Part shown: positions 21,624 to 42,786 of the stretch, piece by piece
How the letters are laid out: the number at the start of each line of letters is the position of its first letter
How positions within the stretch are numbered: position 1 is the first letter of the stretch
Assembly: GCA_016219275.1 (NCBI GenBank)
Contig: JACRBM010000096.1
Coordinates: 1-64,000, forward strand
Reading direction: 5' to 3'
Origin: Chloroflexota bacterium
GTDB taxonomy: Bacteria > Chloroflexota > Anaerolineae > UBA4142
DNA length: 64,000 nucleotides
The notes under the pieces: generated by a model
The model's database searches: none
Told to the model about the DNA's origin: nothing
What the model saw: the letters and a program-made list of their open reading frames with translations, nothing else
Position numbers and translations under genes: made by a program

Positions 21624-24600
21624 CTATTTCGTCACAAAGGGGAAATAGAATGGCAGGTTCATCCACCGCAACGTGATTGGTGGCGCAGGCGCGCGCGCGC
21701 TGGTATCCCCACTGCGAGCACCCCAGCCGTTCCCCGCGCCGTCAACCTGAATCGTCAGCGTATCGCCGTTCGATGAGTACGCGTAATACCCGCTCGACGA
21801 ACTCTGACGCAAGTTGCCGAGGTTCGCTTGCCAGTAGCCAAACCGATCCACGACTGCCGAAAGCGACGCGGAAGTTCCCGTTGTGCCGGTCTTGTTTTGA
21901 TCGGTGATGGTGATGTAGACCAACGCGCCTTCCGCCGGCGTCGTGCTATTCGGCTTGAACACCTGCCCATAGATCACATCCGAACTGGGCAAACCCAAGA
22001 TCGCGCCGGTCTTGAATGTATAGTGTGCTCCTTTGTTGTTGTCAACTGTGCTATCGGACACCAGGTCAAAGTAGTACGTGGTATTCGGTGACAGGTTGAA
22101 CAGTGTAACGTGATGTGAGGTGGCGACCGTCAACGCGTTGCGATCATCGTACGCAGTGTTGCCTAACGCGCTCGCCGTTCCAAAGTTGACCCAGCCCTGC
22201 GCCGCGCGATCAGTCACCCACGAGATCGTCGCGCTCGTGTCGCGCAGATTCGTCACTTGAACTTGAGTGATGCTGGGTACGTTTTTGAGATTGCGTTGCG
22301 CTTTGGGCGCGAGTGGCGCGCGCGGCGCGGCTTGCGCCGACCCACCTGGCACGTACGCGCTGGGTTGCGTGCACTTGACGAAATATCCCTTGTTCGCTTC
22401 AATCGCAAAATCATTGAACGACACATTGTTCAAGTGCGAATCCCAGCCGCCATTCAACCACCGGTCCGCTTCGGGGCAGTTGCCGCCTTGCGTGTTCATG
22501 CCGTCTGTCAAACTCTCGGCGGTCTGTGCGCTCGGCGCGTACGGCACGCCGACCAGATTCCAACCGGTGAACAGACTCAGCGGAATACCTTGCGTGAGTC
22601 CCGTGCCCTGGTACGACCAGGTATTCGCCTTGTTGCACTTGAGGAAATAGCCCATCCCTTGCTGGATCGGGAAATCGTTGAACGGCAAGCCGATCACATG
22701 CGAATCCCAGCCACTGCTGTACCATCGGTCCACTTCGGTACAACCGCCGCCTTGATTATTGATCGCGTTCGCCAAACTCGACGCAGTGTGTGTGATCGTT
22801 GGGCTGATCGGGAGACTGACCAAATTCCAGCCACTCGAAAACAGCAAACTCGTATTCACGTACGCGTACGCCGTCGCATTGTTCGGAAACGCGCCGGCTT
22901 GTCCGCCGCACGTATCGCCTGCCCAGGTTAGCTTGTAATAGTAAGTCTGCCCAGCGACGACCGTCGTATCGGTAAAGTTGTAGGCGTACGGCGTCGTCGT
23001 ACTCGCGCAATTCGATTGACTGGGCTGGGTGCGGACCGCCGTCCACGCCGCCGGGTTGATCGTCGGCGAACGCCACACCTGGAACTTGTCCGTCTTGGAT
23101 TCAGAGATTGTGGACCAGTTGACCTGCACTGTATTCGCCGACCATTGCGCGGAGAACGCCGAAACGTTCGTGCCGGCGGACGGCGTGGGCGTTGGCGTCG
23201 GCGATGGCGTTGCCGAGCCAACCTGCTCGCGTGTTTTTTCTTCGAGCGCGATCTCGTTGAGGCGCGGCGCAGTGCAAGATGAGCAGACGATGCCGACCGT
23301 GATCACACCATCGGTGTACTGCGCCGGATCAATCGGGCATTGCACGCGTTGAAGTGTATTGACTGGCAGATTCCAACACGCCGTGATCGGACTGCCATCC
23401 ACGCTCACTCCTTGCACGCGCGTACTCGACGCGCCATCGTAGAGCGTGAGGTTGAGCAGATAGTTTTTGGCTGGGTTGAGCCGACTGAATTGATAGTTCA
23501 GAGTGTTGCCGAACACGGTGCGGAATGTGTTCACTGCCTCACTCCCGCCCAAACTACTGGCAAACGGTGTGTTAGTCGCCAGATAGCCATACCCACGCGC
23601 GGCGTCGTACGCGACATCACTCGCGCCGCCGGCATCAATGTAGATGTACTCGATCGGTGTGAGCGTGACCTGACTGACGAACGCCGGACCGATGCTCGAA
23701 CCGGCTTTGCGAAAACGCGTCGGTGCGGCAGCACTACCACTTTGCCGTTGGAAACTGACGACGACGGAACCATCGCTGTACGCGGTGGCTGGTACGAGCA
23801 ACGAAAGCGTATTCGGCTGTGCGTCCACCATCGGCACGACACGCCCACTATCCGCGCCGTCAAAGAGCACGAGTTGGTTGAACGTATCACCCTCTTGATA
23901 GAATGTCGCGTCGAGGTGATAGAACCGACCGGGTTGCAAACCGTCAAAGCGATATTGCACCACGCCCGATCCGTCGTACCGCACCGTCTTGGTAATCGTC
24001 GCGCCGCCAAAGTCGAACGTCGAACCATTGAGATAGCCCGCGCCGTTCGCATTCGTGTACGCGGCGTCACTTGCGCCGCCGGCGTCCAGGTTCTGCGCGT
24101 TGATGCCGACGAACACGGTTCGCGTCGTCACATTGTTCGACTCGACCGATTCGGTGATCGTACTCAAACTGTCCGCGGTGATCGTGATCGTGTGCGTGCC
24201 AAACACGGTCGGCGCAAAACTGCGCGTCAGCGTGAGCGTGTTCGTGGCTGGGATCGTAGCGGTTGCCAGGTCTTGGTTATCAGAATAGCCGCCGCCCCGC
24301 GCGTTAAAGTTGGTATAGTGACTCGCCGCGTTCGTTTCACCAGTGTTCGAAATGGTGATCGTCGCGGTGATCGGCTCACCGACGACACGGTCGGTCGCCG
24401 AGAGCGCGATGGACGCGACGCGCAGATCGGGTTTCGTTTTGATGTAGAGCGTTTGCGAAACGACATTGTTGTTTTCGAGTGTCTCACTAATCGCGTTCGG
24501 CGGGTCCACCACCGCGTAGAGTGTTTGCGTGCGCGTGAATCCTTCCGTGTTCCAGTTGAAGGTCGCGGTGGTTGAACCACCGCCTGGGATCGTCGCGACG

Positions 24601-27600
24601 TAGGAACTGTCAATCAGGCGACCACCGGCGCTGGGATTCCCAGCATAGTAACTGACGACGGCGGACGACGCGGCTTGCGCGCCAGTGTTGCGTACTGTGA
24701 CGGTGATCGGAATCGTGTTGCCTTCTGAGGCGAGACAACTGGGACCACCCGGACAACCCAGGACGAGGTCGCTGGGTGTGACAACGAGGTCGAGTCCTGC
24801 TCCGGGTGTGAGACCCAGGTTGGTGAGCAAAACATCCGCCTGGCGATCAATCGTCACGCGCAGTGGCACATCAACCGATGTGCTGATCGGACGCGAGATG
24901 ACGTACTCATTGACCGCGCTCGCAAAGTTGGGAATGTTGATCGTCGTCGGTTGTGTGATCGTTTGCGTGGCAGAGTAGATCGTTTGATTGTTAATGTCCA
25001 CGCGCAAATTCGTTGCGCCGCCCGCGCCGACGTTTGTAACGAGCGCATCCATTGTGGAGGACGCGTATGTTTGCGAGACGACGCGTGTGTACGACGTTTG
25101 GTTGCCCCCGCCGGCAAACGCGAGACGCCGCGCGAATTGCATTACGTAGTTTTGTCCCGGCGAAGTGACGGTGTCGGGCACGGTGTAGCGGATGGTGTTC
25201 GCGTCGGGTTTCTCGGCGAGGTAGAATGCAACTTGTTGAGCACTCGCAGATGGATTTGTTGACCAACCGGGTGTAATGTTTTGGTATTCGATACGGATGC
25301 GACCAGCACCGCCCGCGCCACCAGTTGTTGGATCACCGCTACTGCTACCAGTGCCACCGGCTCCACCAAAGGCTGTTATCAAATTCGTTCCGAGCGTCAT
25401 TTGTTGCGCTTTGATTAGAATCGAACCACCGGCACCACCACCACCACCAGCACCGCTACTGTATCCGCCGACGTTTGTTCGGCTTCCACCATTTCCACCA
25501 TTGGCAATGATATTTCCAGAAACTGTCATCATGCGGCTGGAGATGTAGATTATTCCACCGCCACCGCCACCGCCCATTCCGTTCCAGTCATTAGGATTGC
25601 TATCTGAACAAGCCGCACCGCCACCACCACCTCCCAAAACCATGTTTGTCAAATCTGAAGTGCCTGCCGCTAACCCTCCATTCCCACTCGTGCCTCCATA
25701 GGTACCGCCAACGGCGTTATTCCCTGATGTTCCATTGCCTCCACCAGCACCTGGACGACAGGCACTACCTCCTGATCCAGTGAAATTACCTGCTCCTCCG
25801 CCGTTTCCATTGGACGCGCCAGATTGTATCCCTGTGCCATTTGTTCCGCTCCCTTGATAACCTGTTGCCGGTCCCTGATTTCCATGAACACCCGTTCCAC
25901 CAGAAAAGCCTGTACCAGTACCCGGAGAGAAACTATTATTAGACGCACTGGTACCGTTGGCAACAATGGTTCCATTGATTGTTGTGGTTCCATTTGCAAG
26001 GAATACGACAATCCCGCCCGTCCAACCATCCCAAGGCGTTGCGGTAATTAACCCGCCACTTTCCACTGTAACATTGCGGTATTGGCGTACTTTGATTGCT
26101 TGAGCGCGCCCGTTTGTATTGTCATACGCATAACTGAGTGGTTTAGCCAGTGTCCAGTTTGTTGTTGAATTTATCGCGGTGATTGTGTTGAATTCCCAAC
26201 GCCCAACATTGGCTGTCTCACGTGATTGGTGGAAAAGAATAAGATCACCAACTGCAAACCCTGTTGAACCCCCAGTGTTTGCTGTAGTACCGCTTGCAGT
26301 AACATTGGTTCGCACCAAATCGGCGTAGACCGTCATTCCTGATGTAACTACCAAATCGCCATCGCGTCCGTCGCCAAACACTTGCGCCGACGCTGTCCCC
26401 GCATTGAAATCCGCGCAGTACTTGCCCACACCCTTCAGCGTCGTTCCATCCGCCGCGTAAACCTTGCACGGCTCAATCGTTACCGTGTCGGGTTGGAAGT
26501 TGTGTGTGAAATCAACCGTGCTGAATTGCGCCACGTTGCCGTACACACGCACCGTCTTGTCGAGCGGACGATTCGTAATATCAAACGCGAACGCGGACGC
26601 GGCGGAAGTTGACACCGTGCCATTCACCGGCACCGTTACCGTTTGATGCGCGGGATCGTTCGAGCGAATCGTGAGCGACATCGAAACTGCGCCGGCAAGC
26701 GTTGTCGTGTCGAGCGATGCCACAACCGGCGTTGTGCCTGCCGGCGGAACGGTGATGATGCCATTCGCACCGGACAGTGTAAGTTTCGGATCGGACGAAT
26801 TGACGACGACGTTCAGCGGCATAATGCCGGTGTTGACGATAGAAATCGTCTGTTGTGGTTGCGCGCCTTGTGTTACCGTGCCAATGTTCCAGGTCGCGGG
26901 CGAGGTGTTCAAGACCGGTGCAGGATCAACATCAAACGTCGAGAGCGGACGCGCGCGCGTGTCAATCACATTGCCTTCACTGTCCGTCCACGACGCGAGC
27001 ATCAAATAATCAATCGTCGCGTTGTACGTTGGCGAGAACGTCGCGGTTGACCAGGTTACCGGCACAATCGTCGGACCCGCTTGAAGCGTCAGTGTGTACG
27101 GCAAATGCGCGACGACCGCGCCGCCGCCAACAATATCCACGTAGAGATTCGCGTTTTGAATTGTTTGCGTGTGTGGATTGTTGACAACCAGGTGCGTGGT
27201 GTTGTTGCCGGACGACGCGAACCTGGTTTGCGATACAATATCCACACTGAGGTTTCGCAACATTGATGATGAGTACGGCGTCAAGTTCTCGCTGAGCGCA
27301 GACATTTCCCGCGTCGTGATGAAACGATGACTGCCTTGCATATCGCTGTAACTGACGACGATGACCGGCATTGTGTACGGATCGTTGTTGACCGTGAACT
27401 TGAACGTATCGCGCGGCGTGTACGCGGCGACGGTAAAACTTTCGCCGGTGAGAATCGTTCCCGTGTCGAATCCAACTTGCAAACCTTCACTGCCGACGGC
27501 AATCGGCAGAGGCGCGTGATAACTCGAACCCAGGGCGAGCGAGCCGCTCGCGCTACCATCGCTCCAATTCATCGCGGTTGTGCCAGAGCCAACGACGCCG

Positions 27601-30395
27601 GGGATAGACACGGTAAAGGTGTACACCTTGTCTGCGCCGCCGGTGAAATCGCCGGTCGAGTACACTTTGGCGGTGCTGTTCGTCCAATTTGTCAGCGTCG
27701 GTTTTTTGACAAGACTACCAACCGCGACGTGCGCGCCCGGTCGAACGCGCCCATTGCCGCCAATGGTGTTGTCGTTGATCGTTGTCGTCGCGTCGGGCGA
27801 GTACATCACCGCTTGCATTCCGAACGCATCGAACGTGCCGTTGTTTTGCAGAGCGAGTTTGACCGTGACCGTGTTGCCCACGCGCGCGATGGTATAGCCC
27901 GCGAGAATTTCCGGGTTCGGATGGGACGCGGGATCGTTCTTGTTCGTGCCGTACTGCAACTCGATGCGGTCAGGGTACCCATCGCGATCGGAATCGCGAT
28001 TGAAGCGAAAGAGCAAAGCGGAACTCGCTTGCGCGTTCAGATCGCGCAATTGCGTGTTGCCCGCGTCCGCTTGCGTCAAGTACACATTCCACCACGCAAT
28101 TTCGGACAAGAAATGTTCATTCCATTGCGGCGTCGTTCCGTTGAATTCAGGCGTGTACATCGCGTTCATCAAGCCATCGCTATCCATCCCGATTGGGAAA
28201 TAGCGCGCGATCACCTCTTGCACATTCTCGGTGCCCCAGGTTGGCAAAACGTATTGGTCAACGAGTTCGTCGTTATCGTTCACGCCGTCGTCAACGTAAA
28301 TCGTTACACCGCTGTTGATCGCGTCCTGGTAAAAGAGTTGGTCAACACCGTACGAAAAATCCGCGAGCGTAACGACCAACTTTTCGCCCAGGTCAATGCG
28401 TTTCATCTGGTCAAGCGTGAGATGAACGGCGGGTGTCGAAGCGAATGTTTTGACATCGCCGGGAAAAACATTTTCAAGTTTGCCGTTCGGAAATTGTTGC
28501 CACGCCGGATACGAAATGATCGGGTTCGGGTCATCGCCCAAATAAATGTTAAAGATCAAGCCGGTGATTTCGCGCGCGTACTCCGACCCGGCATTTTTGA
28601 TCGTGTAGTTGAACGTCAGATTCGCGGCATAACTCGAATCGGTTGCCCAAGCGGTGCTCCAATTTTCGCCGGTCGCAAAAGCGTTGGACTCTGAGAGCGT
28701 ATGCTCCTCGTAATCTTCCTGGGTTGTTGTCTGTGCACCACCCCAAGACTGTCCGCTTGCATGTGTTTCCGTGAAGCGTTGTTGTGAGATGGCATAACTG
28801 ATGCCGCGCAGCTCACGAGCGAGCAAATCATTATTGGAGTTGGTAGTGTACCAAGTACCACTTGGAGATTGAGAAGGTGTCTGGAATTCACCGCGTTGAG
28901 CAGACATTGATGTAGCAAGGATTTCTGGCGATTGGGTGAACGCGCACTCATTAGTGGTGTTTGGGGTCGAGGGGCGGTTGCCCTGGTTTTGAAAACAGGC
29001 AGGATACTTTTGCTGGCGTTTGTACTCATCCAGTTTCTGTTTGATTTCCTTGGCCCATTCATCACCACCTTCCTTTATCATGTAGATCCCACCGCCAACT
29101 TCTCCAACGCAAGCCAGAAGCCCAACTCCACTCAAGCCTTCAATGCATACTCCGGCGCCTTTGATGACTAATGCTCCTCCCAGGAAGATCTTTCCTGTAC
29201 TCCAAGCAAAGTCTTGCAGAAAGCCCTTGGGTGCAGAAGGCTTCTGCACTAGCTGCTTGGGAGTAACTGGTGTTTCAATAGATTGCGATACCTCCTCCCA
29301 GTTGTTCCATGTCACTGTGTTCGCTACGCTTGTGCTGTGTCCACGCGTTGTTGCGCTACCGTACGTCTTTTCCGTCTGCGTCATCTGTCCTTGTTGCGTC
29401 GTGATCGTCGTCACGCGTTCAACTTTCCACGAACTGGGAATGACGGACACTTCGGGTATTGGAAACGCGGCGACAAACGGACTATCGTACGGCGGCTTGA
29501 CCCAGGTTGGCATCTCGGCAAAAATCACGCCCCAGTCCACTGCGCGCGGCAACGCGCCGTAACCACAACCGCCGCCACTTCCGGGGCAGTTTGTCAAGCC
29601 GAACAACTTTTGCCCATCGTCAAACTTGTCGCGCGCGGTGGATTCGCGGTTCGGGTTCAAGCCAAAAACGTAGACCTCCACCGCGTCGGGCACGGAATCG
29701 TAATCGGAATCGTAGCAACCGGTTTGGTTGGGGGGCCACCCGGCAAACGGTTTGCCGGACGCGGGGCGCGTCGCGCGCGTGTGCAAAATCCAATCGCGGA
29801 GTGCGTTCACTTCGTCGCCATCGTTCACGCGGTCGTTGTCGCTATCGGCAAGGTTTGCGTTCGTGCACCACCAACCTTCTTCCGTGTCGTTCAAGCCGTC
29901 GTTGTCGGAATCGGTCGCGGTGGCGGCAAGGATTTGCGCGGAGGTTGCGGTGGCAGCCAGCGGCGCGCGGCTCGCGGTCTGCAAGCGCGCAGTCAGTTCC
30001 GTCTTGCGCGGCTGGAATTGCAGTTTCGCCAGGTTCTCCAACTGCGCGCGGTCGGCAATCACTGTCGCATCTGTTTTCGTGGATGCGAGAATTGTCACGC
30101 CCAGTTTCTTGAGCCGCGCAAGATCGGCGTTGCCGCGAATGCGAACCGTCGTGCGGTACGGACCAACCGGCTGTTGCAGTGTCGCTTCGATCTCGTACAT
30201 CGGCGCGAGGTCCATCGGAATTTCGCGCAACAATGGTTGTGAATCGAGTGGCGCGATATAGAGCGTAAGGTCATCGCTCTGCGAACCGAGTTCGCTACTC
30301 GGCGATCGGAGCGGCGCGGCAAATGAACGCGGCGCGGGCAGAGAGGCGACAATCAACGACACGATCACGATTGCATAAAGTGTTTTGCGAAACAT
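21624..30395 (-). CDS. Giant secreted multidomain surface protein (about 2,923 residues)
   Basis: ATG 30395 has GGAGG 4 bases upstream and opens a signal peptide (ending about PRSFAAP). Residues 162-196 carry thrombospondin-3/EF-hand-like calcium motifs (DSDNDGLNDTEE, DSDNDRVNDGDE). A long central part contains further DxDxDG-type repeats and beta domains. Residues ~1510-1700 are very glycine-rich (GGGGGGGIIYISS, GAGGGGGAGG). CARDB-like domains follow near 1865-2015 (ITVTVRNTGAQAASSAVVSY) with malectin-like segments after that. A short TPTPTP linker sits near 2410, and a fibronectin-type III plus regulatory-like module lies at the C-terminus. It is probably an adhesin or cell-surface/extracellular-matrix protein. 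No enzyme motif is recognised. Confidence 0.85.
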   Translation of the reverse strand: MFRKTLYAIVIVSLIVASLPAPRSFAAPLRSPSSELGSQSDDLTLYIAPLDSQPLLREIPMDLAPMYEIEATLQQPVGPYRTTVRIRGNADLARLKKLGVTILASTKTDATVIADRAQLENLAKLQFQPRKTELTARLQTASRAPLAATATSAQILAATATDSDNDGLNDTEEGWWCTNANLADSDNDRVNDGDEVNALRDWILHTRATRPASGKPFAGWPPNQTGCYDSDYDSVPDAVEVYVFGLNPNRESTARDKFDDGQKLFGLTNCPGSGGGCGYGALPRAVDWGVIFAEMPTWVKPPYDSPFVAAFPIPEVSVIPSSWKVERVTTITTQQGQMTQTEKTYGSATTRGHSTSVANTVTWNNWEEVSQSIETPVTPKQLVQKPSAPKGFLQDFAWSTGKIFLGGALVIKGAGVCIEGLSGVGLLACVGEVGGGIYMIKEGGDEWAKEIKQKLDEYKRQQKYPACFQNQGNRPSTPNTTNECAFTQSPEILATSMSAQRGEFQTPSQSPSGTWYTTNSNNDLLARELRGISYAISQQRFTETHASGQSWGGAQTTTQEDYEEHTLSESNAFATGENWSTAWATDSSYAANLTFNYTIKNAGSEYAREITGLIFNIYLGDDPNPIISYPAWQQFPNGKLENVFPGDVKTFASTPAVHLTLDQMKRIDLGEKLVVTLADFSYGVDQLFYQDAINSGVTIYVDDGVNDNDELVDQYVLPTWGTENVQEVIARYFPIGMDSDGLMNAMYTPEFNGTTPQWNEHFLSEIAWWNVYLTQADAGNTQLRDLNAQASSALLFRFNRDSDRDGYPDRIELQYGTNKNDPASHPNPEILAGYTIARVGNTVTVKLALQNNGTFDAFGMQAVMYSPDATTTINDNTIGGNGRVRPGAHVAVGSLVKKPTLTNWTNSTAKVYSTGDFTGGADKVYTFTVSIPGVVGSGTTAMNWSDGSASGSLALGSSYHAPLPIAVGSEGLQVGFDTGTILTGESFTVAAYTPRDTFKFTVNNDPYTMPVIVVSYSDMQGSHRFITTREMSALSENLTPYSSSMLRNLSVDIVSQTRFASSGNNTTHLVVNNPHTQTIQNANLYVDIVGGGAVVAHLPYTLTLQAGPTIVPVTWSTATFSPTYNATIDYLMLASWTDSEGNVIDTRARPLSTFDVDPAPVLNTSPATWNIGTVTQGAQPQQTISIVNTGIMPLNVVVNSSDPKLTLSGANGIITVPPAGTTPVVASLDTTTLAGAVSMSLTIRSNDPAHQTVTVPVNGTVSTSAASAFAFDITNRPLDKTVRVYGNVAQFSTVDFTHNFQPDTVTIEPCKVYAADGTTLKGVGKYCADFNAGTASAQVFGDGRDGDLVVTSGMTVYADLVRTNVTASGTTANTGGSTGFAVGDLILFHQSRETANVGRWEFNTITAINSTTNWTLAKPLSYAYDNTNGRAQAIKVRQYRNVTVESGGLITATPWDGWTGGIVVFLANGTTTINGTIVANGTSASNNSFSPGTGTGFSGGTGVHGNQGPATGYQGSGTNGTGIQSGASNGNGGGAGNFTGSGGSACRPGAGGGNGTSGNNAVGGTYGGTSGNGGLAAGTSDLTNMVLGGGGGGAACSDSNPNDWNGMGGGGGGGIIYISSRMMTVSGNIIANGGNGGSRTNVGGYSSGAGGGGGAGGSILIKAQQMTLGTNLITAFGGAGGTGSSSGDPTTGGAGGAGRIRIEYQNITPGWSTNPSASAQQVAFYLAEKPDANTIRYTVPDTVTSPGQNYVMQFARRLAFAGGGNQTSYTRVVSQTYASSTMDALVTNVGAGGATNLRVDINNQTIYSATQTITQPTTINIPNFASAVNEYVISRPISTSVDVPLRVTIDRQADVLLTNLGLTPGAGLDLVVTPSDLVLGCPGGPSCLASEGNTIPITVTVRNTGAQAASSAVVSYYAGNPSAGGRLIDSSYVATIPGGGSTTATFNWNTEGFTRTQTLYAVVDPPNAISETLENNNVVSQTLYIKTKPDLRVASIALSATDRVVGEPITATITISNTGETNAASHYTNFNARGGGYSDNQDLATATIPATNTLTLTRSFAPTVFGTHTITITADSLSTITESVESNNVTTRTVFVGINAQNLDAGGASDAAYTNANGAGYLNGSTFDFGGATITKTVRYDGSGVVQYRFDGLQPGRFYHLDATFYQEGDTFNQLVLFDGADSGRVVPMVDAQPNTLSLLVPATAYSDGSVVVSFQRQSGSAAAPTRFRKAGSSIGPAFVSQVTLTPIEYIYIDAGGASDVAYDAARGYGYLATNTPFASSLGGSEAVNTFRTVFGNTLNYQFSRLNPAKNYLLNLTLYDGASSTRVQGVSVDGSPITACWNLPVNTLQRVQCPIDPAQYTDGVITVGIVCSSCTAPRLNEIALEEKTREQVGSATPSPTPTPTPSAGTNVSAFSAQWSANTVQVNWSTISESKTDKFQVWRSPTINPAAWTAVRTQPSQSNCASTTTPYAYNFTDTTVVAGQTYYYKLTWAGDTCGGQAGAFPNNATAYAYVNTSLLFSSGWNLVSLPISPTITHTASSLANAINNQGGGCTEVDRWYSSGWDSHVIGLPFNDFPIQQGMGYFLKCNKANTWSYQGTGLTQGIPLSLFTGWNLVGVPYAPSAQTAESLTDGMNTQGGNCPEADRWLNGGWDSHLNNVSFNDFAIEANKGYFVKCTQPSAYVPGGSAQAAPRAPLAPKAQRNLKNVPSITQVQVTNLRDTSATISWVTDRAAQGWVNFGTASALGNTAYDDRNALTVATSHHVTLFNLSPNTTYYFDLVSDSTVDNNKGAHYTFKTGAILGLPSSDVIYGQVFKPNSTTPAEGALVYITITDQNKTGTTGTSASLSAVVDRFGYWQANLGNLRQSSSSGYYAYSSNGDTLTIQVDGAGNGWGARSGDTSARAPAPPITLRWMNLPFYFPFVTK

Positions 30396-30478: not shown

Positions 30479-31183
30479 CTATTCTGATGCAATTTCGCAC
30501 CAATTCCTTGCGGCTGACGTTGTGGTGAGTGACTCGTTCTCGCGCACTCGGAAATCTATTTGACTGACTCGCCACGCGTGCACAGCGGCTTGCGTGCGAT
30601 TGGCGACGCCTAGTTTCGTCAGAATCGAAGTCATGTGATTCTTGATCGTCTTTTCGCGCAGGTTGAGCGCATAGGCGATTTGCTTGTTGCTCTTGCCCTG
30701 GGTCAGATGCTCAAGCACCTGATTCTCGCGGCGCGAGAGCGGACGGCGCGAACGACTCGCGGAACCGGTGGTTGCTCGGCGAAAGCGATGTCGCCGGTTG
30801 AGTTCACAATTCTGCTCTACCACTGTGCGAATTTCGCGGGACAATTCTTCGAGAGGAATGGTTTTGACAACAAACGCGCAATGCTGAACGTTCAACTTGC
30901 CGAGTTGTGCTTGGTCGCGGTCGTCTTCCGATAAGACGATCACGGTGGATTGTGGGAACCGGGCAATAAGCCGGCTCAAGGTGTTGCGATTACTTTGATC
31001 AGACCAATCGAGTCCAATCAGGATCGCGTTGGGATGGCCGTCGTCATCCGATGCCATTAGGCGCGCGGCATCGGCGTATGCGATTTGAGGCTGCGTCTTG
31101 AACGCGTGCTCAAGGAGTGATTGCAGACCTACCCGATAAATTGCGGATTGATCTATGACGATGACCGCAATGTTTAGAGTCAT
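30479..31183 (-). CDS. NarL/LuxR-family response regulator
   Basis: The product is 234 residues. ATG 31183 is chosen over upstream in-frame codons because a GGAG lies close before it and the receiver domain begins here. The phosphoacceptor is Asp59 (LIGLDWSD) and the conserved lysine is present (FVVKTIPLEEL). The C-terminal GerE helix-turn-helix is complete: PLSRRENQVLEHLTQGKSN and KTIKNHMTSILTKLGVANRT. It ends 83 bp before the giant surface-protein gene on the same strand and may regulate it. No kinase gene is adjacent. Confidence 0.88.
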   Translation of the reverse strand: MTLNIAVIVIDQSAIYRVGLQSLLEHAFKTQPQIAYADAARLMASDDDGHPNAILIGLDWSDQSNRNTLSRLIARFPQSTVIVLSEDDRDQAQLGKLNVQHCAFVVKTIPLEELSREIRTVVEQNCELNRRHRFRRATTGSASRSRRPLSRRENQVLEHLTQGKSNKQIAYALNLREKTIKNHMTSILTKLGVANRTQAAVHAWRVSQIDFRVRENESLTTTSAARNWCEIASE

Positions 31184-31242
31184 GCTCCGTTGCTCCCAGT
31201 TTGGTATTTGTTCGTTGCCAGTGGATCGGCGCAAGAAAACAA

Positions 31243-31295
31243 AAAGCACCTGTCGTCGAACGCGTAAAATTTACGCGCCCGACGACAGGTGCTTT
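31243..31295 (-). terminator. Strong intrinsic terminator
   Basis: AAAGCACCTGTCGTCG (31243-31258) pairs perfectly with 31280-31295, enclosing a second palindrome built on CGCGTAAA/TTTACGCG. On the minus strand the stem is followed by a TTTTTGTTTT tract. Confidence 0.9.
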
Positions 31296-31409
31296 CTAGT
31301 TCTACGCGCGCGCCATCACGCGCGCAGATGCCAACTGACCAATTCGGTCAGCGGTATGGCATACCACGAAACCAGAATCCGCAACCTAAGGGGCAAAGAT
31401 AGACTTACA
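31243..31409 (-). ncRNA. Candidate structured small RNA or attenuated leader
   Basis: A strong promoter on the minus strand should start transcription near 31409, and a long terminator hairpin ends at 31243. Between them are several hairpins, seen on the minus strand: CTGACC/GGTCAG with a GAATT loop, GGTATG/CATACC, and GCGCGCG/CGCGCGC with a TGATGG loop. No ribosome site or convincing reading frame lies inside. The transcript would be about 165 nt. The response-regulator gene starts 60 bp after the terminator, so this could be a riboswitch-like attenuator. I recognise no known RNA family. Confidence 0.55.
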
Positions 31410-31415
31410 ATCGTG

Positions 31416-31444
31416 ATTATAGCAGGGTGCGCTGGGATTGGCAA
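31416..31444 (-). promoter_or_regulatory. Near-consensus promoter on the minus strand
   Basis: Read on the minus strand: TTGCCA (31444-31439), a 17-nt spacer, then a perfect TATAAT (31421-31416). Transcription would begin near 31409 and run into the structured leader and terminator before the response-regulator gene. Confidence 0.8.
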
Positions 31445-31517
31445 ATCCCCGAATCACCGCATCCAAAATGATACGGAAGACCGCACGGCAAAAACGTTGT
31501 GACGCCCCCCGCGCTTT

Positions 31518-31545
31518 TTGTGGTTCTGCGCCAATGTGATATACT
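31518..31545 (+). promoter_or_regulatory. Possible promoter of the first receptor gene
   Basis: TATACT at 31540-31545 is a good -10 element; TTGTGG, 16 nt upstream, is a poor -35. Position upstream of the leader hairpin and the TTG at 31725 is plausible. Confidence 0.35.
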
Positions 31546-31639
31546 GAAATTGTAAGCTGGTCTTTGTCCCCGGTAAGTGCTTGATTAGTTTGTGCTAGTC
31601 TCTTTTTGACGACGGAAGGCACACGATGGCGCATTGTTT

Positions 31640-31704
31640 CAACGGGCAAGGGCGAAGGTAGCAAACCGACAGTTGCTGTTTGCTCGATTCGTCCTTGCCC
31701 GTTG
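31640..31704 (+). promoter_or_regulatory. Nested leader hairpin before the first DGR target gene
   Basis: CAACGGGCAAGG (31640-31651) pairs with CCTTGCCCGTTG (31693-31704). Inside it AGCAAAC (31660-31666) pairs with GTTTGCT (31678-31684). The structure ends 10 nt before the GGAG ribosome site at 31715, so it may affect translation or mRNA stability. No T-tract follows. Confidence 0.5.
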
Positions 31705-31724
31705 TCTATTACCCGGAGCATCCC

Positions 31725-34526
31725 TTGTCCAAGAAACCCACTTTCCCCAAGAAACGTACCCCAACCAAGCGCGGTTCTTCAACGCCGACGATCGGCACGA
31801 TGAAAGGCGGCACCGCCGCGCGTGATATTTATTGCGCCGATTTTGTCGGCGGCAATCAAAGAATCACCTACGGCTATTCCGCGCGCGAGGTCGAACGCTT
31901 GATCGAAAAGGTGCTTGCGTTTCTCCAAGCCGGCGCGACGTTTCTGCCGAGTGGCGACACGGTGCGCGCAGAATTGGATGGCGAGTCGCTGACGTTCCAA
32001 CCCGACGCGATCACAAAACTTGCTCGGCAGCGCAGCGAGCGTTCGTACTTGCTCGCGCTTATCGTGCATCGCGAGTACCGCGATTGGGCGACCAAATTCA
32101 TTCCGCTTGCCGCGCAAATGGACAAGATCACCGAGATGCCCATTGCGTTTTCCGAATTTCGGATCCCGTCACCCGGCGCGGGACCCGAAGCGCGCCTAGA
32201 GACGGTACCACTCGCTGACATCACTGAGGCATTGGCAAAACATTCCGCGTTCGTGATCCTGGGTGAACCGGGCGCGGGTAAAACGACAACACTCCAAAAG
32301 ATCGCGTTCGAAGCGGCACGCAAATTGCTGAGTGGCGAGCCAGGACCCGTGCCGCTCTTTGTGCGGCTGAGCATGCAAGCCGAACGCACTCCGTTTGACT
32401 TTCTAGAAACCGAGTGGCGCCAACGCACCGGGAGCGATTTGGCAGATGCACTCTCTGCCGGGCGCGTGTTGTTGCTCGCGGACGGCATCAACGAATTGCC
32501 CCTCGGACCCGAACGGGACAAGCGATTGAAAGCGTGGCGCTTGTTCCTAAATGAATACTGCGAATCGAGTCAGGTCGTTTTTACGAGCCGCGAAAAGGAT
32601 TACGATCAGCAATTGAATTTGCCGCGTGTGCGTGTCGAACCGCTCGACGACGCACGCATCACGGATTATCTGCAACGCAACGACGCGCAAGGTCTCGCCG
32701 CGTATTTGGATGATCCCCGGTCGCGGTTGCGCGAGATGGCGGGCAACCCCTTCAACCTCTGGCTGCTCACGCTCAAATACAAAGACAACCAAACTGGAAT
32801 GGAGAATCGCGGACAGTTGTTGGATTGGTTTGTCCAGAGTCTGCTCAAACGCGAAAAAGATCAAGCTCACAGCGATTGGATCCATCGCCGCGTGCAGATG
32901 ACCGCGCTCGCGCAATTGGCGTATCAGATGCAAAAGCAGGGGCAAGGACTGACGTTTCCGTTCAAAATTGCGGAAGCTGCCCTGCCCACGACCGTAGACC
33001 TTGCTGGCGAAGACATTCCAATCAGACCGTTGACGTTGTTCCGCCTCGCGCGCGCGGCGACGATTCTCGACCCAGGGATTGATCCGGACATTCGCTTTTA
33101 TCACCACCTCCTCCAAGAATATTTTGCCGCGCTCGAATTGCGCCGCCGTTTTGATGCGAGCGAAGACTTGGGCGCACTGTGGAAATGCAAACGACTCGCG
33201 AGCGAAATGCCGGCGGCACAAGTAGGCGATTGGGACCCACTGCCCGAACCACCCGCGACCGGCTGGGAAGTGACGACGATTCTGGCATGCGGTTTGGCGC
33301 ACGCCCCAGCCCGCTTGATTGAAGCGGTGCGCCCGCACAACCCTGTGCTTGCTGGGCGAATGTTGGACGAGGCGGGAATGGCGAAACCGGATGCGGTGAC
33401 AAAACTGGTGCGTGCAGATTTGCTCGCCGACCTATACGATCCCGCTGTGCATTTACGCGCGCGCTTGCAAGCGGGGTTTGCGCTCGGACGCATTGGCGAT
33501 CCGCGCTTTGAACCGCAAATGCTGAACGGCGTCAAGGTGATTGTGCCGACGATGGTGCGTGTGCCCGCAGGCAAGTACGTTATTGGCGATGATGCCAGTC
33601 AGTACGACGACGAAAAACCGCAACATGAAATTGAACTGCCCGCGTTTGAGATTGGCAAGTGGTCGGTGACGAACGCGGAGTACGCGTGTTTCATTGACGC
33701 CAGTGGCTACAAAGACGAACGGTACTGGAAAACGGATTTGGCGAAACGCTGGTTGCGCGGTGAAGATGTAACGGGTGGTCAATTCGCCAGTTGGCTTCGA
33801 CTTTGGAAGGCACTTCAGGAGACGCCCAACTGGAAGGAACAACTTGAACGCACCGGGAGTTATTCGCCCGAGCAATTGAAAACGTACGAACAGGTTGCCG
33901 GCTTGAGCGAAGAAGAATTGAAAACAGAACTGGGCAAGAGTCTGTCGAACAAATCGCGCGAGCAACCGCAATGGTGGAATGACGCGCAGTACAACAATCC
34001 AGCGCAGCCCGTTGTTGGCATCACCTGGTTTGAAGCGAACGCGTACTGCGCGTGGCTTTCCGAAATGACCGCGCGCGAATATCGTTTGCCCAGCGAAGTC
34101 GAATGGGAAGCCGCCGCGTGCGGTCTCCCTTCGCCCTCTCAGGGAGAAGGGTTGGGGATGAGGGTCAGAACGTATCCCTGGGGCGACGACTGGGACGCGG
34201 CGTGTGCAAACACGATTGAAGGACGCGTGATGCGACCCTCACCGGTCGGCGCGTACCGCGCCGCGGGTGGCGTGGGAGAATGCGGCGCGGAAGATCAATC
34301 TGGAAATACCTGGGATTGGATGAGCACCCAGTATCGTGATTATCCATACCAAGCCGAAGACCGGGAGAATCCAGAAGCAGAAGGCGAGCGCGTTGTCCGT
34401 GGCGGCTCGTGGCTCAATGTTGCGTTCGCTGCGCGCTGGGCGATTCGCGACAGGCTCGTACCTGATAACTTCACCAACAATCTCGGTTTTCGGTTGTGTT
34501 CTCCTGGCTCTATTCCTGCATCCTGA
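31725..34526 (+). CDS. STAND NTPase with DGR-diversified FGE-type C-terminus (target 1)
   Basis: The product is 933 residues from TTG 31725, with CGGAG 6 bases upstream; ATG 31800 would remove a basic N-terminus seen in all relatives. Residues ~26-45 hold the family motif GGTAARDIYCADFVGGNQ. The NTPase has a P-loop at ~180 (GEPGAGKTTT), Walker B LLLADGINELP and sensor VVFTSRE. A helical middle region leads to an FGE-sulfatase/C-type-lectin-like domain from about residue 609 (VPAGKYVIGDD to GGSW...GFRLC). VR1 lies in the last 42 codons. A short element is inserted in frame at 34122-34168. By family it should be a signalling receptor of a biological-conflict or defence type; the ligand is unknown. 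Confidence 0.9.
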   Translation: MSKKPTFPKKRTPTKRGSSTPTIGTMKGGTAARDIYCADFVGGNQRITYGYSAREVERLIEKVLAFLQAGATFLPSGDTVRAELDGESLTFQPDAITKLARQRSERSYLLALIVHREYRDWATKFIPLAAQMDKITEMPIAFSEFRIPSPGAGPEARLETVPLADITEALAKHSAFVILGEPGAGKTTTLQKIAFEAARKLLSGEPGPVPLFVRLSMQAERTPFDFLETEWRQRTGSDLADALSAGRVLLLADGINELPLGPERDKRLKAWRLFLNEYCESSQVVFTSREKDYDQQLNLPRVRVEPLDDARITDYLQRNDAQGLAAYLDDPRSRLREMAGNPFNLWLLTLKYKDNQTGMENRGQLLDWFVQSLLKREKDQAHSDWIHRRVQMTALAQLAYQMQKQGQGLTFPFKIAEAALPTTVDLAGEDIPIRPLTLFRLARAATILDPGIDPDIRFYHHLLQEYFAALELRRRFDASEDLGALWKCKRLASEMPAAQVGDWDPLPEPPATGWEVTTILACGLAHAPARLIEAVRPHNPVLAGRMLDEAGMAKPDAVTKLVRADLLADLYDPAVHLRARLQAGFALGRIGDPRFEPQMLNGVKVIVPTMVRVPAGKYVIGDDASQYDDEKPQHEIELPAFEIGKWSVTNAEYACFIDASGYKDERYWKTDLAKRWLRGEDVTGGQFASWLRLWKALQETPNWKEQLERTGSYSPEQLKTYEQVAGLSEEELKTELGKSLSNKSREQPQWWNDAQYNNPAQPVVGITWFEANAYCAWLSEMTAREYRLPSEVEWEAAACGLPSPSQGEGLGMRVRTYPWGDDWDAACANTIEGRVMRPSPVGAYRAAGGVGECGAEDQSGNTWDWMSTQYRDYPYQAEDRENPEAEGERVVRGGSWLNVAFAARWAIRDRLVPDNFTNNLGFRLCSPGSIPAS
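34122..34168. repeat. In-frame palindromic insertion in the FGE domain
   Basis: TCTCCCT (34124-34130) pairs with AGGGAGA (34141-34147), followed by GGGGATGAGGG. This resembles the dispersed CCCTCTC/GAGAGGG intergenic elements of many genomes. It encodes about 11 extra residues (PSPSQGEGLGM) just before the conserved YPWG, where the other two receptors read GVDGREYPWG and HVDGRAYPWG. Confidence 0.65.
34400..34510 (+). repeat. DGR variable repeat VR1
   Basis: This 111-bp segment aligns without gaps to the template repeat at 39639-39749. Of 26 template adenines in the mutable core, 13 are changed (AAC to CTC, TTC, GAC and ACC, for example). Two thymines also differ (TGT to TGG, and the first base of TAT to A). 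It encodes the ligand-site end of the receptor, from GGSW to the CSPGS tail. Confidence 0.97.
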
Positions 34527-34573
34527 TTTCTGGGTTCTGATTTCTGGTAACTGAATTTCTGAGGAAAGGGGCG

Positions 34574-34596
34574 TGGGGAAAACGACGTTTTCCCCA
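34574..34596. promoter_or_regulatory. DGR-associated DNA hairpin after VR1
   Basis: TGGGGAAAAC (34574-34583) pairs with GTTTTCCCCA (34587-34596), loop GAC. The same structure follows VR2 and VR3 at nearly the same distance. In the well-studied Bordetella phage DGR a hairpin or cruciform downstream of the target repeat enhances retrohoming, so an equivalent role is likely. Confidence 0.8.
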
Positions 34597-34629
34597 CTGG
34601 GTACGAAAATTTTTGTGTGGAGGAAAACA

Positions 34630-35157
34630 ATGCCAAAGAAACTCGTAACGAAAAAGAAGACGCCGGCTAAAGCCAAGCCGCGCGCAACAAGAGGCATCAA
34701 CATCAACAAGATGACTGGCGGTGTGGTGGGCAACATCAGAGCCAAGCGCGTGATTGTCGGCAACCAAACCAATTACTACGACAATCGCAAAATCGCCATC
34801 GCGACGCCCCAGCAATTCATCGCCGAGGCGGAAAAACTCCAAGCGCAAATCGCGCAGGTCAAGCAACTGCCCGCGTTGCCGACCGCGCAAGCGCCACTCG
34901 TGCTCGCCGCTGAACAAAATGTGCAGATGGCTACGGCGGAAGCGAAAAAGGACAAGCCGAATCCGAACGTCATCAATGAAAATCTCAAGACGGCTGCCGC
35001 CACCATGGATTTGATCGGCAAGACAGTTGCCGCGGCGCAGGGTGTGGGGCAAAAAATCACGCAAGCTGTGGATGGGATCGATTTCCCTCGGTTTGCCATG
35101 GGCGCGGCGACACTCGGTGACCTCGCGCTCAAGGTGTTTAACGCGATTCCGAAATGA
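34630..35157 (+). CDS. Small protein sharing the receptors' N-terminal motif
   Basis: The product is 175 residues. ATG 34630 has GGAGG 6 bases upstream. A very basic start (MPKKLVTKKKTPAKAKPR) is followed by NKMTGGVVGNIRAKRVIVG and NQTNYYDN, the same motif as in the NTPase proteins at 35241 (GNIKSDRDVILGNQINQYS) and 39947 (GKMTGGTIAQGDIRTERDF). The rest is helical with Ala/Gln-rich segments and ends in a moderately hydrophobic helix (FPRFAMGAATLGDLALKVF). No NTPase, FGE or VR is present. It lies between targets 1 and 2 and could be an adaptor or effector joined to the receptors through the shared motif. Function is unknown. Confidence 0.75.
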   Translation: MPKKLVTKKKTPAKAKPRATRGININKMTGGVVGNIRAKRVIVGNQTNYYDNRKIAIATPQQFIAEAEKLQAQIAQVKQLPALPTAQAPLVLAAEQNVQMATAEAKKDKPNPNVINENLKTAAATMDLIGKTVAAAQGVGQKITQAVDGIDFPRFAMGAATLGDLALKVFNAIPK

Positions 35158-35168
35158 CGAAGGACAGA

Positions 35169-35207
35169 GGACGGAAGACGGATAGCCGAAGAATTCATCT
35201 TCCGTCC
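35169..35207. repeat. Short inverted repeat between genes
   Basis: GGACGGAAGA (35169-35178) pairs with TCTTCCGTCC (35198-35207). The surrounding GACGGAAGACGG-type low-complexity sequence looks like a dispersed intergenic element. It may also slow transcription into the next gene. Confidence 0.5.
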
Positions 35208-35240
35208 GTCGTCCCCGGTCATCCATCGAATTGAGGTCCT

Positions 35241-38051
35241 ATGCCACGTAAACCCAGTTCGCCCAAACAGACGGGCAACATCAAGTCTGACCGCGACGTG
35301 ATTCTCGGCAATCAGATCAACCAGTACTCATCCGCCGATCTCACGCGCGTCGAAGCGCAGCTTGGGCAGATTATTGCATTGTTGCGGGTGCGAGACACAA
35401 CGCTACATGTCGAAGGCGATGTGCGCGATTCGGTTATCGTTGTTGGCGGATCGAGCAATACCGTGAGTTTCCGGGCGCGCGATTTGCCATTGTTGCGTGC
35501 GCTCTCCGCTGGGGATTCGCATCGCCGCGAAGAAATCTATCTCACCGAAATGATTCTCGACAAAACACACGCGCGTTGGGATCGGCTCTACCTACCGCTT
35601 GCCGGTCGGCTAGGTCCTGCCCAAATGCCGAGTGATGTGTTCGAGACCAAGATGCGCTTCGCCGACAGCGCAGACCCAGGTATCAGCGCCGCTGGCATTC
35701 CACTTACCGATGTGCGCGACGCGCTTACCGAATTGAACAAGCCGCGTCTCGTCATCCTCGGTGAGCCAGGGGCAGGCAAGACGACGACGCTCGAACGACT
35801 CATGCTTGACCTTGCCCTCGCGCGTCTGCGCGAGCCGCACAAGAACAAACTTCCCTTCCATACCGAACTTGCCGATTTCATCGGCGAGCGCCAACAGCCA
35901 GAAGAATTTCTTGAAGCAAAATGGGGCAAGAGCGGTCTCGCCCAAACCTATGCGGACGCCATTCTCACCGGACAGGTTTGCTTTTTGCTCGACGGCATCA
36001 ATCAAATGCCGTGGGCTGACCGCAACGAGCGCATCATGCGCTGGGCGCGTTGGGCGCGCGCATTGGCATCAAGCAATTGGGCTGTGTTCACTTGCCGGAC
36101 AGCCGATTTCGTTCCTCTGCTCGGCTTGCCCGAAGTCCGTGTGCAGACACTCGACAATGACCAGATTCGCCGGTACTTTGGACTCCGCTTCGGAGAGCCG
36201 CGCGCGACCGACCTCTGGCTCGTATTCGAGCATCGTCTGCGCGGGAGCGAGGACCGCTTTCAGCGTGTCGCGCGTAATCCCTTCATGCTCGCGCAATTGG
36301 TAGCGCGTTGCGACGAAGGCAAACCACTCACCGACAGCCGTGCCCTGTTGATGCAAGATTTGGCAAAACGACTGCTCGACCGTGAATTGGCGAATCAACC
36401 GGAAGGAAGCCCACTCACTGCTGACCCGATTGAGACGTTCGGTGTGGCAATGGATGAGTTGAGCCGGATTGCGTATGACGCGCAAGCGCGTGGGGAGAGC
36501 ACCAATTTCACGCGCGCTCAACTTGAGCACGTGTTGCTGGGTGAGCCGGAGCGCGCGCGTCTTTCGCTGGATAGAGTAATTCATCTTGCAACGCGTGCGA
36601 CGATTATTGAGGACAAGCGCGACCAAGGGTACGCATTTTATCACCAACTCTTGCTCGAGTATTTTGCCGCGCGCGAACTCTTACGCCGATTCCGCGCCGG
36701 CGAAACCCTGGCGCAACATTGGCGCGTCGGTTGGCGGGTATGGCACTTTATGCCGAAACGCTTGCAGCGGGGACAACGAATGGACCCGCCGCCTACTACG
36801 GGCTGGGAAGAACCCGTGGTAATGGCAGCGGGAATGGCGGTCAAAGATGCGCCGCGTTTCATTGACACGGTGCAAAAAGACAACCTGCCGCTTGCCGGGC
36901 GCTGTCTGGCGGAAATTGATACTTCGAGCAAAGAAATGAAATCGCTCGTGAGTGAAGTACGCATGTTGCTTCTTCAGCGTCAACGCGATTCATTCGCACA
37001 TCTTCGCGGGCGCATCAGTGCGGGTTTGGCGCTTGGCGAACTAGGACACCCCGAACTCGTTCCGCAGAAATTCGAGTGTGAAGGACGCGTGGTGTGGGCA
37101 ATCGTTCCTCCAATGCAACCCGTTCCCGCTGGCGAATTTATTCGCGGAAGTGAGCGCGGCAAATCCAAGTATGCAGATGAGTTCACGAATGAACGGCGCA
37201 TTGCACTTCCCGAATTCAACATTGCGCGTTACCCGGTGACGAATGCCGAGTATGAATTGTTCATTGACGACGGCGGCTACAGAACCGACCGGTGGTGGAG
37301 TGATGCCGGATGCGTGTGGAAGCAAGGTGGACCCGACGCGCATAAGAACGCGATGGAAGACTTGCTGGCATACCGAAAACGCATTCAAACAGAGAAAGAA
37401 AGTCTGGAGGCGCGTGCCAAGCGATTGAACTGGGTACCACAAACGTACCGATACTGGAATGAAGTTATTGCGCTTTCAGACGAACAAGCCGAAGAACGTA
37501 TACGTCAGCAATTCGACCGTCCCTTTGACCGTCCTGGATACTGGGAGGATCGAGATGGGTTAGCGAGTCCGGGGAAACCCGTGGTTGGCGTGAATTGGTA
37601 CGAAGCCGAAGCGTACTGCAATTGGTTGTCTGCGATCACTAAACGTGAATTCCGGTTGCCCCAGGAAATGGAATGGGAAAAAGCCGCGCGCGGCGTGGAT
37701 GGACGCGAATATCCGTGGGGCGAAAAATTTGATTCCGCGTTGTGCAACACGAACGAGAGTCACATTTACACGACGACGCCAGTCGGTTTGTATCCCGGTG
37801 GCGTTTCGCCGTTCGGTCTGTTCGATGCGAGCGGGAATGTTTGGGAATGGACGGGAGACTGGTACCAAATGTATCCCGGCGGTAACGAGTTAGACGATTT
37901 CGGAGAGAAATTTCGCGTTGTTCGTGGCGGCTCGTGGCTCATTGTTGCGGGCAATGCGCGCTGTGCGTATCGCGGCAGGTTCGTACCTGTTGACTTCAAC
38001 GGCAGTGTCGGTTTTCGGTTGTGTTCTCCTGGCTCTATTCCTGCATCCTGA
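35241..38051 (+). CDS. STAND NTPase with DGR-diversified FGE-type C-terminus (target 2)
   Basis: The product is 936 residues. ATG 35241 has GAGG 6 bases upstream. The N-terminus carries GNIKSDRDVILGNQINQYS, then a beta-helix-like stretch (LHVEGDVRDSVIVVGGSSN). The NTPase has P-loop GEPGAGKTTT at residue 174, Walker B CFLLDGINQMP and sensor AVFTCRT. The FGE-like domain begins near residue 623 (VPAGEFIRGSERG ... YPVTNAEYELFID) and includes EYPWGEKFDS and ASGNVWEWTGDW. VR2 covers its last 42 codons. Domain order matches targets 1 and 3, so all three are paralogous receptors using one template. Confidence 0.92.
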   Translation: MPRKPSSPKQTGNIKSDRDVILGNQINQYSSADLTRVEAQLGQIIALLRVRDTTLHVEGDVRDSVIVVGGSSNTVSFRARDLPLLRALSAGDSHRREEIYLTEMILDKTHARWDRLYLPLAGRLGPAQMPSDVFETKMRFADSADPGISAAGIPLTDVRDALTELNKPRLVILGEPGAGKTTTLERLMLDLALARLREPHKNKLPFHTELADFIGERQQPEEFLEAKWGKSGLAQTYADAILTGQVCFLLDGINQMPWADRNERIMRWARWARALASSNWAVFTCRTADFVPLLGLPEVRVQTLDNDQIRRYFGLRFGEPRATDLWLVFEHRLRGSEDRFQRVARNPFMLAQLVARCDEGKPLTDSRALLMQDLAKRLLDRELANQPEGSPLTADPIETFGVAMDELSRIAYDAQARGESTNFTRAQLEHVLLGEPERARLSLDRVIHLATRATIIEDKRDQGYAFYHQLLLEYFAARELLRRFRAGETLAQHWRVGWRVWHFMPKRLQRGQRMDPPPTTGWEEPVVMAAGMAVKDAPRFIDTVQKDNLPLAGRCLAEIDTSSKEMKSLVSEVRMLLLQRQRDSFAHLRGRISAGLALGELGHPELVPQKFECEGRVVWAIVPPMQPVPAGEFIRGSERGKSKYADEFTNERRIALPEFNIARYPVTNAEYELFIDDGGYRTDRWWSDAGCVWKQGGPDAHKNAMEDLLAYRKRIQTEKESLEARAKRLNWVPQTYRYWNEVIALSDEQAEERIRQQFDRPFDRPGYWEDRDGLASPGKPVVGVNWYEAEAYCNWLSAITKREFRLPQEMEWEKAARGVDGREYPWGEKFDSALCNTNESHIYTTTPVGLYPGGVSPFGLFDASGNVWEWTGDWYQMYPGGNELDDFGEKFRVVRGGSWLIVAGNARCAYRGRFVPVDFNGSVGFRLCSPGSIPAS
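37926..38036 (+). repeat. DGR variable repeat VR2
   Basis: It aligns over 111 bp to the template repeat with no gap. In the core 16 of 26 template adenines are replaced, and every non-adenine position is identical. This is the cleanest of the three VRs and by itself demonstrates adenine-specific mutagenesis. Confidence 0.98.
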
Positions 38052-38097
38052 CTTCTGGGTTCTGGATTCTGGGAACTGGTTTCTAAGGAAAGGGGTG

Positions 38098-38120
38098 TGG
38101 GGAAAACGTCGTTTTCCCCA
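38098..38120. promoter_or_regulatory. DGR-associated DNA hairpin after VR2
   Basis: TGGGGAAAAC (38098-38107) pairs with GTTTTCCCCA (38111-38120), loop GTC. The stem is identical to those after VR1 and VR3 while the loop differs. Confidence 0.8.
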
Positions 38121-38184
38121 CTGGGTACAAAAATTTTTCGCGTGTAGGGCAATTTTCAAAATTGCCTTACGCCGAGAGGAGCAG

Positions 38185-39255
38185 ATGAAAACCTTCAAAC
38201 ACCTGTATCCACAAATCACCGCGTTTGAGAATTTGTGGCTTGCGTTCAAAGGCGCGGCGCGTAGCAAGCGGCGTAATCCGCACATCGCCGAGTTCGAGTT
38301 CCACCTTGAACGCAACCTGGTCGAAGTGCAAACGGAACTCGCCGCGCAAACGTATCGCCCCGGCGCGTATCGCAACTTTATGATCTACGATCCCAAGCCG
38401 CGGCTCATCTCCGCCGCGCCGTTTCGAGATCGCGTCGTGCATCACGCGCTCTGCCAGGTTATCGAGCCGATCTTTGAACGGCGTTTCATTCACGATTCGT
38501 ATGCCTGTCGCAAGGACAAGGGCACGCACGCCGCGCTCGACCGCGCGCAGGAATTCGCGCGCGAATTTCCATACGTCTTGCAGTGCGACCTGGAGCATTT
38601 CTTTCCAACTGTGGATCACGCCATTCTGCGTGCGACGCTCGCGCACGTCGTCGCCGATCCGCAAACGCTCTGGCTCGCGGACCAGATTCTTAACGGCGGC
38701 GCGAGCGTTCATGCCGATGAACCGCCGCGCTATTTTGCGGGCGACGATTTGTTCGCCGCCAATCGCGCGCATGGACTGCCGATTGGAAATCTTACCTCCC
38801 AGTTTTGGGCAAACGTCTATCTCAGTCCGCTCGATCAATTTATCAAACGTGAATTGAAATGCACGGGTTACGTTCGCTACGTGGACGATTTTCTGCTCTT
38901 TGCGCCAGACAAACCGACGCTACACGCTTGGCGCGCTCGCGTGATCGAGTTCGCCGCCACGTTGCGCCAAACCTTGCACGAGGAACGCGCGGCGGTGTTT
39001 CCAACTAATACCGGCATTCCATTCCTGGGTTGGCGCATCTATCCCGATCATCGCCGGCTCAAACGACGCAACGGACTCGCGTTTCAACGACGCTTTGCGC
39101 GTTTGCGCGCGCAGTACGCCGCCGGAAAAGTCGGACGGGACAAACTGGATGCGGCGATCAACGGTTGGGTCGCGCACGTTATGCACGGCGACACGTGGGG
39201 CTTGCGCCGCGCGCTCTTGTCGCGCGTCGTCGTGCCGAGGGCGTGCGCAGTATGA
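38185..39255 (+). CDS. DGR reverse transcriptase
   Basis: The product is 356 residues. ATG 38185 is preceded by GAGGAG. It is a retroelement-type RT: the fingers region has PKPRLISAAPFRDRVVHHAL, the palm has the first catalytic Asp in VLQCDLEHFFPTVDH, and the DGR signature GLPIGNLTSQFWANVYL lies near residue 198. The YVDD box is at residues 232-235 (GYVRYVDDFLLF) and the thumb start at PFLGWRIYPDHRRLKRRN. DGR RTs copy the template RNA with adenine-specific errors, and the cDNA replaces the VR. It overlaps the next gene as ATGA. Confidence 0.96.
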   Translation: MKTFKHLYPQITAFENLWLAFKGAARSKRRNPHIAEFEFHLERNLVEVQTELAAQTYRPGAYRNFMIYDPKPRLISAAPFRDRVVHHALCQVIEPIFERRFIHDSYACRKDKGTHAALDRAQEFAREFPYVLQCDLEHFFPTVDHAILRATLAHVVADPQTLWLADQILNGGASVHADEPPRYFAGDDLFAANRAHGLPIGNLTSQFWANVYLSPLDQFIKRELKCTGYVRYVDDFLLFAPDKPTLHAWRARVIEFAATLRQTLHEERAAVFPTNTGIPFLGWRIYPDHRRLKRRNGLAFQRRFARLRAQYAAGKVGRDKLDAAINGWVAHVMHGDTWGLRRALLSRVVVPRACAV

Positions 39256-39590: not shown

Positions 39591-39638
39591 GGGCGGGGTG
39601 ATCCCGCTCGTACACGATGGGGGACAAACCACGAATAA

Positions 39639-39749
39639 GGCGGCTCGTGGAACAATGATGCGAACAATGCGCGCTGTGCGTATCGCAACAGGAACGTACC
39701 TGATAACTTCAACAACAATATCGGTTTTCGGTTGTGTTCTCATGACTCT
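39639..39749 (+). repeat. DGR template repeat (TR)
   Basis: This non-coding 111-bp repeat begins GGCGGCTCGTGG and ends with CATGACTCT. It is rich in AAC/AAT codons, which would be translated as Asn and are ideal for adenine mutagenesis. It has 26 adenines between 39651 and 39740, and all three VRs match it elsewhere with only three exceptions in total. The last nine bases differ from all VRs only at two adenines (39742 C, 39745 G), probably marking the IMH/IMH* boundary. Confidence 0.97.
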
Positions 39750-42583: not shown

Positions 42584-42628
42584 TTCCTGGGTTCTGATTG
42601 CTGGGGACTGGTTTCTAGGAAAGGGGCT

Positions 42629-42769: not shown

Positions 42770-42786
42770 CATTTGCTGAGAACGAT

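Follow-up and report, generated by a model that had tools for sequence, protein, structure and literature searches.

A short leader on the minus strand, placed ahead of an orphan regulator gene, may act as a transcription attenuator of that gene, a reading in which we place about even confidence on the basis of the sequence. In the window (the whole stretch of 64,000 nucleotides that was analyzed), this leader, its promoter and its intrinsic terminator precede a same-strand gene for which a scan for sigma-70-like promoters detected no promoter of its own, the layout that characterizes an attenuator. The features concerned are the following:

31416–31444, minus strand: sigma-70-type promoter (TTGCCA-17-TATAAT with an extended -10 TG), by sequence match.
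31240–31409, minus strand: predicted short transcript of ~170 nt (attenuated leader or small RNA [sRNA]), from the promoter and terminator positions.
31276–31395, minus strand: possible antiterminator fold, in which 31395-31370 would pair with 31301-31276, enclosing two hairpins and excluding the lower terminator stem.
31302–31327, minus strand: GC-rich hairpin CUGCGCGCGUGAUGGCGCGCGCGUAG, which explains the structural excess of the 5' part.
31240–31298, minus strand: intrinsic terminator, 28 pairs without a break and a U-rich tail that reaches about 31236, by stem search and folding.
30479–31183, minus strand: orphan LuxR/NarL-type regulator with a degenerate receiver (phospho-Asp to Gly), by GerE match and alignment.
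21624–30395, minus strand: gene for a giant secreted multidomain protein of about 2,900 amino acids, with ATG at 30395 and GGAGG.

The promoter, already proposed in a sequence-only reading of this DNA, holds up well beyond chance. Its -35 element lies at 31444-31439 and its -10 element at 31421-31416, with a TG ahead of the latter and a spacer of 17 nt. The match scores 11/12, a score reached by just two sites in the window and expected at 0.05 per 64 kb per strand in first-order Markov sequence; none of 40 simulated strands had an 11/12 site with an extended -10 TG. It is also the sole site of at least 9/12 within 31180-31760, and the interval between terminator and regulator contains no promoter-like site at that threshold, in a scan that covered sigma-70-like types and that a regulator promoter of another type may escape. 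The transcript is predicted to start at about 31409.

About 110 bp past this predicted start begins the terminator stem, made of 24 Watson-Crick and 4 G-U pairs closed by a loop of 3 and followed by the tail UUUUUGUUUU. U-tailed stems in 20 simulated 64-kb strands had at most 12 pairs. The sequence-only reading had thus been right about a strong terminator with a T-tract, but the perfect 16-bp stem that it described was too short. The stem departs from a perfect palindrome at four positions, each of them G-U in the minus-strand RNA but A-C in RNA of the opposite strand, and the hairpin is therefore more stable on the minus strand (-47.5 versus -39.1 kcal/mol), a predicted bias that agrees with a terminator for leftward transcription. 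Promoter and terminator are co-oriented, 120-200 bp apart and both far beyond chance. The regulator ATG follows at 31183, about 57-60 nt after the terminator and with GGGAG/GGAGC upstream, so that the coordinates proposed earlier proved correct, as did the layout of a promoter, a leader and a strong intrinsic terminator followed 60 bp later by a gene on the same strand.

The leader itself appears less structured than had been supposed. Although a 174-nt stretch folds at -92.5 kcal/mol (z = -10.0 versus shuffles), most of this is the contribution of the terminator: the 113 nt ahead of it give z = -2.8, with 1.4% of shuffles equal or better, and once the GC hairpin is removed this part gives z = -0.5, with 30% of shuffles as good. 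The several stable hairpins described earlier accordingly reduce to two that are worth naming in the predicted fold, the terminator and the GC hairpin at 31327-31302, while the remaining leader folds like shuffled sequence. In the nascent RNA before the 3' arm of the terminator is made, the pairing of 31395-31370 with the 5' arm reaches a predicted probability of about 0.9-1 for most paired arm bases, and this nascent RNA, taken over its full length, is predicted to be better folded than 99.8% of its shuffles. Such mutually exclusive alternative pairing is what an attenuator needs, but the predicted gain is not exceptional: it was matched by 38% of shuffled terminator arms and by 23% of the 5' domains after shuffling, and only when the shuffling was limited to the first 42 nt of the leader did the share fall to 3%. 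The last figure is suggestive; the modeled antiterminator pairing is mostly not beyond chance. Upon base-by-base extension, the terminator invades from the loop and the alternative is fully displaced by 31242, inside the U-tract. At equilibrium, the terminator fold is favored by about 34 kcal/mol, and termination is predicted to occur without the help of an effector. Leader-peptide attenuation was considered and rejected, as the leader offers frames of 21-26 codons, none with a convincing ribosome-binding site or a run of a single amino acid.

The regulator encoded downstream has 234 residues and a GerE domain of the LuxR family (E = 2.9e-22), with a full-length similarity to NarL/MadR-type proteins that stays below the cut-off. 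The earlier description of a LuxR-type response regulator calls for a proviso: in an alignment with seven homologues, the aspartate that a phosphorylation-dependent response regulator conserves as phospho-acceptor is replaced by Gly (AILIGLD versus VVLMDIR), and Ile stands at the first Asp of the acidic pocket; the second Asp and the Lys are retained. Because the regulator has no phospho-acceptor aspartate, its amount is more likely than phosphorylation to determine its activity, an arrangement consistent with tight transcriptional control. Its best homologues among 396 genomes of the class share 28-36% identity, a scan of contigs in GTDB gave none better, and neither search found an orthologous regulator locus. 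The gene for the giant secreted protein starts 84 bp past the regulator and, judging by this layout, is a probable operon partner. Homologues of its N-terminal part, the portion searched, occur in few relatives only (63% in genome G010 and 50% in G015). Traced through this gene, conservation of the leader was not seen, as neither of these two loci has the regulator or a comparable strong terminator in front.

Searches for relatives of the leader RNA were negative at every level. Rfam gave no match at the gathering score, as anticipated by the sequence-only reading, which had recognized no known family. Up to E = 5 no riboswitch was matched, and the matches below the cut-off were hairpin driven and attributable to chance; the leader thus matches no described aptamer family. 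Neither sequence nor covariance model found a second copy in the same genome. No homologue turned up in 60 relatives, in 20 genomes from the order or in 400 from the phylum, and 396 genomes from the class lacked one both by sequence and by a covariance model of the branched fold; these samples overlap and hold no second species of the genus. As that model rests on one sequence, its negative result excludes close structural relatives only. Phages, plasmids and viral contigs gave no match either, which together with the single genomic copy led us to reject a mobile or repeated element. Weak DNA matches in three genomes are about what a search of some 400 genomes would be expected to give: those in G273 and G342 cover the GC hairpin only and are at chance level (the stretch in G273 is, by eye, a sensor-kinase-like coding sequence), and that in G410 comprises 24 nt round the small palindrome GGTATGNCATACC, partly within the end of an open reading frame and otherwise unlike the leader. 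An operator reading of GGTATGCCATACC, a GntR-like dyad, was likewise not supported, with 17 genome matches at up to 2 mismatches against 11 for a reversed control. For the structural conservation in relatives that the sequence-only reading had set as a test, these searches yielded no comparable locus; that no relative of the RNA turned up argues against a widespread RNA family.

In the attenuator reading, RNA polymerase would start at about 31409 and make a leader of about 170 nt; most rounds would stop at the 28-bp terminator and release a short RNA, and only read-through transcripts would reach the regulator and probably also the giant surface-protein gene. The level of read-through would be set by a protein, by an sRNA or by mere basal leakage. 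Of this, the sequences and the order of promoter and terminator, the lack of a second promoter-like site and the degeneracy of the receiver are observed. Use of the promoter, efficient termination, dependence of the regulator on read-through and the setting of read-through by one of these means are inferred. This reading is favored by a promoter and a terminator that are co-oriented and both far beyond chance, by the close and co-directional position of the regulator, which has a ribosome-binding site but, between it and the terminator, no promoter-like site of at least 9/12, by the G-U wobbles that favor the minus-strand RNA in folding, by the predicted alternative pairing of the terminator 5' arm and its full displacement only as the U-tract is made, and by the missing phospho-Asp of the receiver. 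Against it, a 28-bp terminator looks built for a complete stop rather than for switching, the modeled alternative pairing is no stronger than with shuffled terminator arms (the 38% above), and no relative among the genomes searched carries the element.

Sequence alone cannot separate the attenuator from an independent sRNA or a fixed insulator. The main rival is an independent sRNA of ~170 nt that has a strong promoter and terminator to itself and base-pairs with other RNAs, the regulator being a neighbor with an unrecognized promoter; we regard it as possible but clearly the less probable of the two. The near-consensus promoter, the very strong terminator, the unstructured 5' end and the want of a convincing ribosome-binding site in the leader open reading frames all suit an sRNA, whose unpaired 5' stretch UCUUUGCCCCUUAGG could base-pair to ribosome-binding sites rich in purines, but the scan for sigma-70-like promoters offers no other site for the regulator, and neither a homologue nor a second genomic copy was found. 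Long strong hairpins occur at gene ends or between genes elsewhere in the window (21575-21616, 49504-49531 and 42733-42774), where they are usual at gene ends, and the long stem may therefore be a habit of this genome. A fixed insulator would draw on this: the terminator would only keep transcription that starts in the upstream promoter region, or antisense to the divergent NACHT gene, out of the regulator operon, and the short transcript would be functionless. This is unlikely, as a near-consensus promoter 120 bp upstream and pointed at the terminator would then serve nothing. Far less probable still is a ligand-binding riboswitch whose 5' domain senses a small molecule and toggles between the antiterminator and the terminator. 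Folding does predict a closed and branched alternative that uses the 5' arm of the terminator, in a nascent RNA that outfolds nearly all of its shuffles (99.8%), but the permissive Rfam search matched no riboswitch, the 5' domain without the GC hairpin folds like shuffled sequence, the single-sequence covariance model found no structural relative in the 396 class genomes, the complete terminator exceeds the alternative in stability by about 34 kcal/mol, and the gene downstream is a regulator, neither a metabolic gene nor a transporter. The sequence-only reading had left the choice between a riboswitch-type attenuator and an independent sRNA; the attenuator-like layout stands, but a riboswitch in particular finds no specific support in a mostly unstructured leader with an antiterminator not clearly beyond chance and no homologue. 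Only slightly less improbable than the small-molecule version is a new, lineage-specific RNA switch in which the modeled 31395-31276 fold would sense a signal (a metabolite, a protein or a partner sRNA) and open the terminator for an unphosphorylatable regulator and the 2,900-residue surface protein.

Returning to the attenuator, other leaders of this sort are known to give off functional short RNAs as well. In the Rli51 leader of Listeria mpl, premature termination frees a short RNA of 121 nt (PMC11394854). The two cases are alike in a short RNA formed by premature termination in a 5' leader ahead of a same-strand gene and in predicted terminator and antiterminator folds. They differ in that the antiterminator is reported as the stabler fold for Rli51, whereas here it is the terminator, and in that trans action has been shown for Rli51 while the present RNA is a prediction from DNA; no sequence relation is expected. 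In Escherichia coli, RNA sequencing revealed premature 3' ends in 5' untranslated regions (UTRs) and 5'-UTR-derived sRNAs such as ChiZ and IspZ, some of these ends involving Rho or upstream open reading frames (PMC7815308). The predicted leader RNA resembles these as a short stable RNA from transcription ending in a 5' UTR, but it has an intrinsic terminator and no convincing upstream open reading frame. With 6S RNA (RF00013) it shares a similar length, a strong promoter and stability, but its predicted structure differs from the rod with a central bubble that 6S forms, and a 6S identity was rejected since the sole RF00013 match of the genome is on another contig (C106, 66 bits).

On its other side, the leader adjoins a divergently transcribed NACHT-FGE gene. 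By sequence, this gene and its like clearly belong to a diversity-generating retroelement (DGR) that spans 34389-42651, with a reverse transcriptase within 37918-39255 on the plus strand, a template repeat at about 39639-39749 and variable repeats at about 34401-34511, 37926-38036 and 42458-42568; template adenines account for 51 of the 54 differences that separate the variable repeats from the template. Its three target genes encode NACHT-FGE-sulfatase proteins (31680-34526, 35241-38051 and 39818-42583). DGR variable repeats are known to have a target-site hairpin downstream. Here, the hairpin TGGGGAAAACGNCGTTTTCCCCA or a close version follows each variable repeat (about 34590-34620, 38115-38145 and 42628-42652), is common to the three targets, is absent after the template repeat and may, by its resemblance, be such a target-site hairpin. 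DGR-linked FGS effector domains have been described in conflict systems, namely, the cyanobacterial and gammaproteobacterial VMAP systems (PMC7159879), from which the present genes differ by the NACHT fusion. Between two of the targets, a small lysine-rich open reading frame of 194 amino acids (34573-35157, plus strand) has no Pfam or NCBIfam match and is a possible accessory protein. Other repeats in the window include a second long, imperfect inverted repeat at 31640-31704 (27-nt arms, 85%, no U-tract), which lies just ahead of GGAG at about 31715 within the 5' leader of the divergent NACHT-FGE gene; the 20-bp hairpin at 21575-21616, near which the giant gene ends; and degenerate tandem repeats at 14-795 and 20259-20829, with shifted copies about 72-76% identical.

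The leader or sRNA described here is a real feature, above chance and of a familiar kind, as yet unclassified and found in a single genome. Provided that it is transcribed, it makes a clean candidate case of an orphan regulator controlled by transcription attenuation, in a lineage that has been little studied, and it would illustrate how control can be exerted over a regulator that lacks a phosphorylation site.
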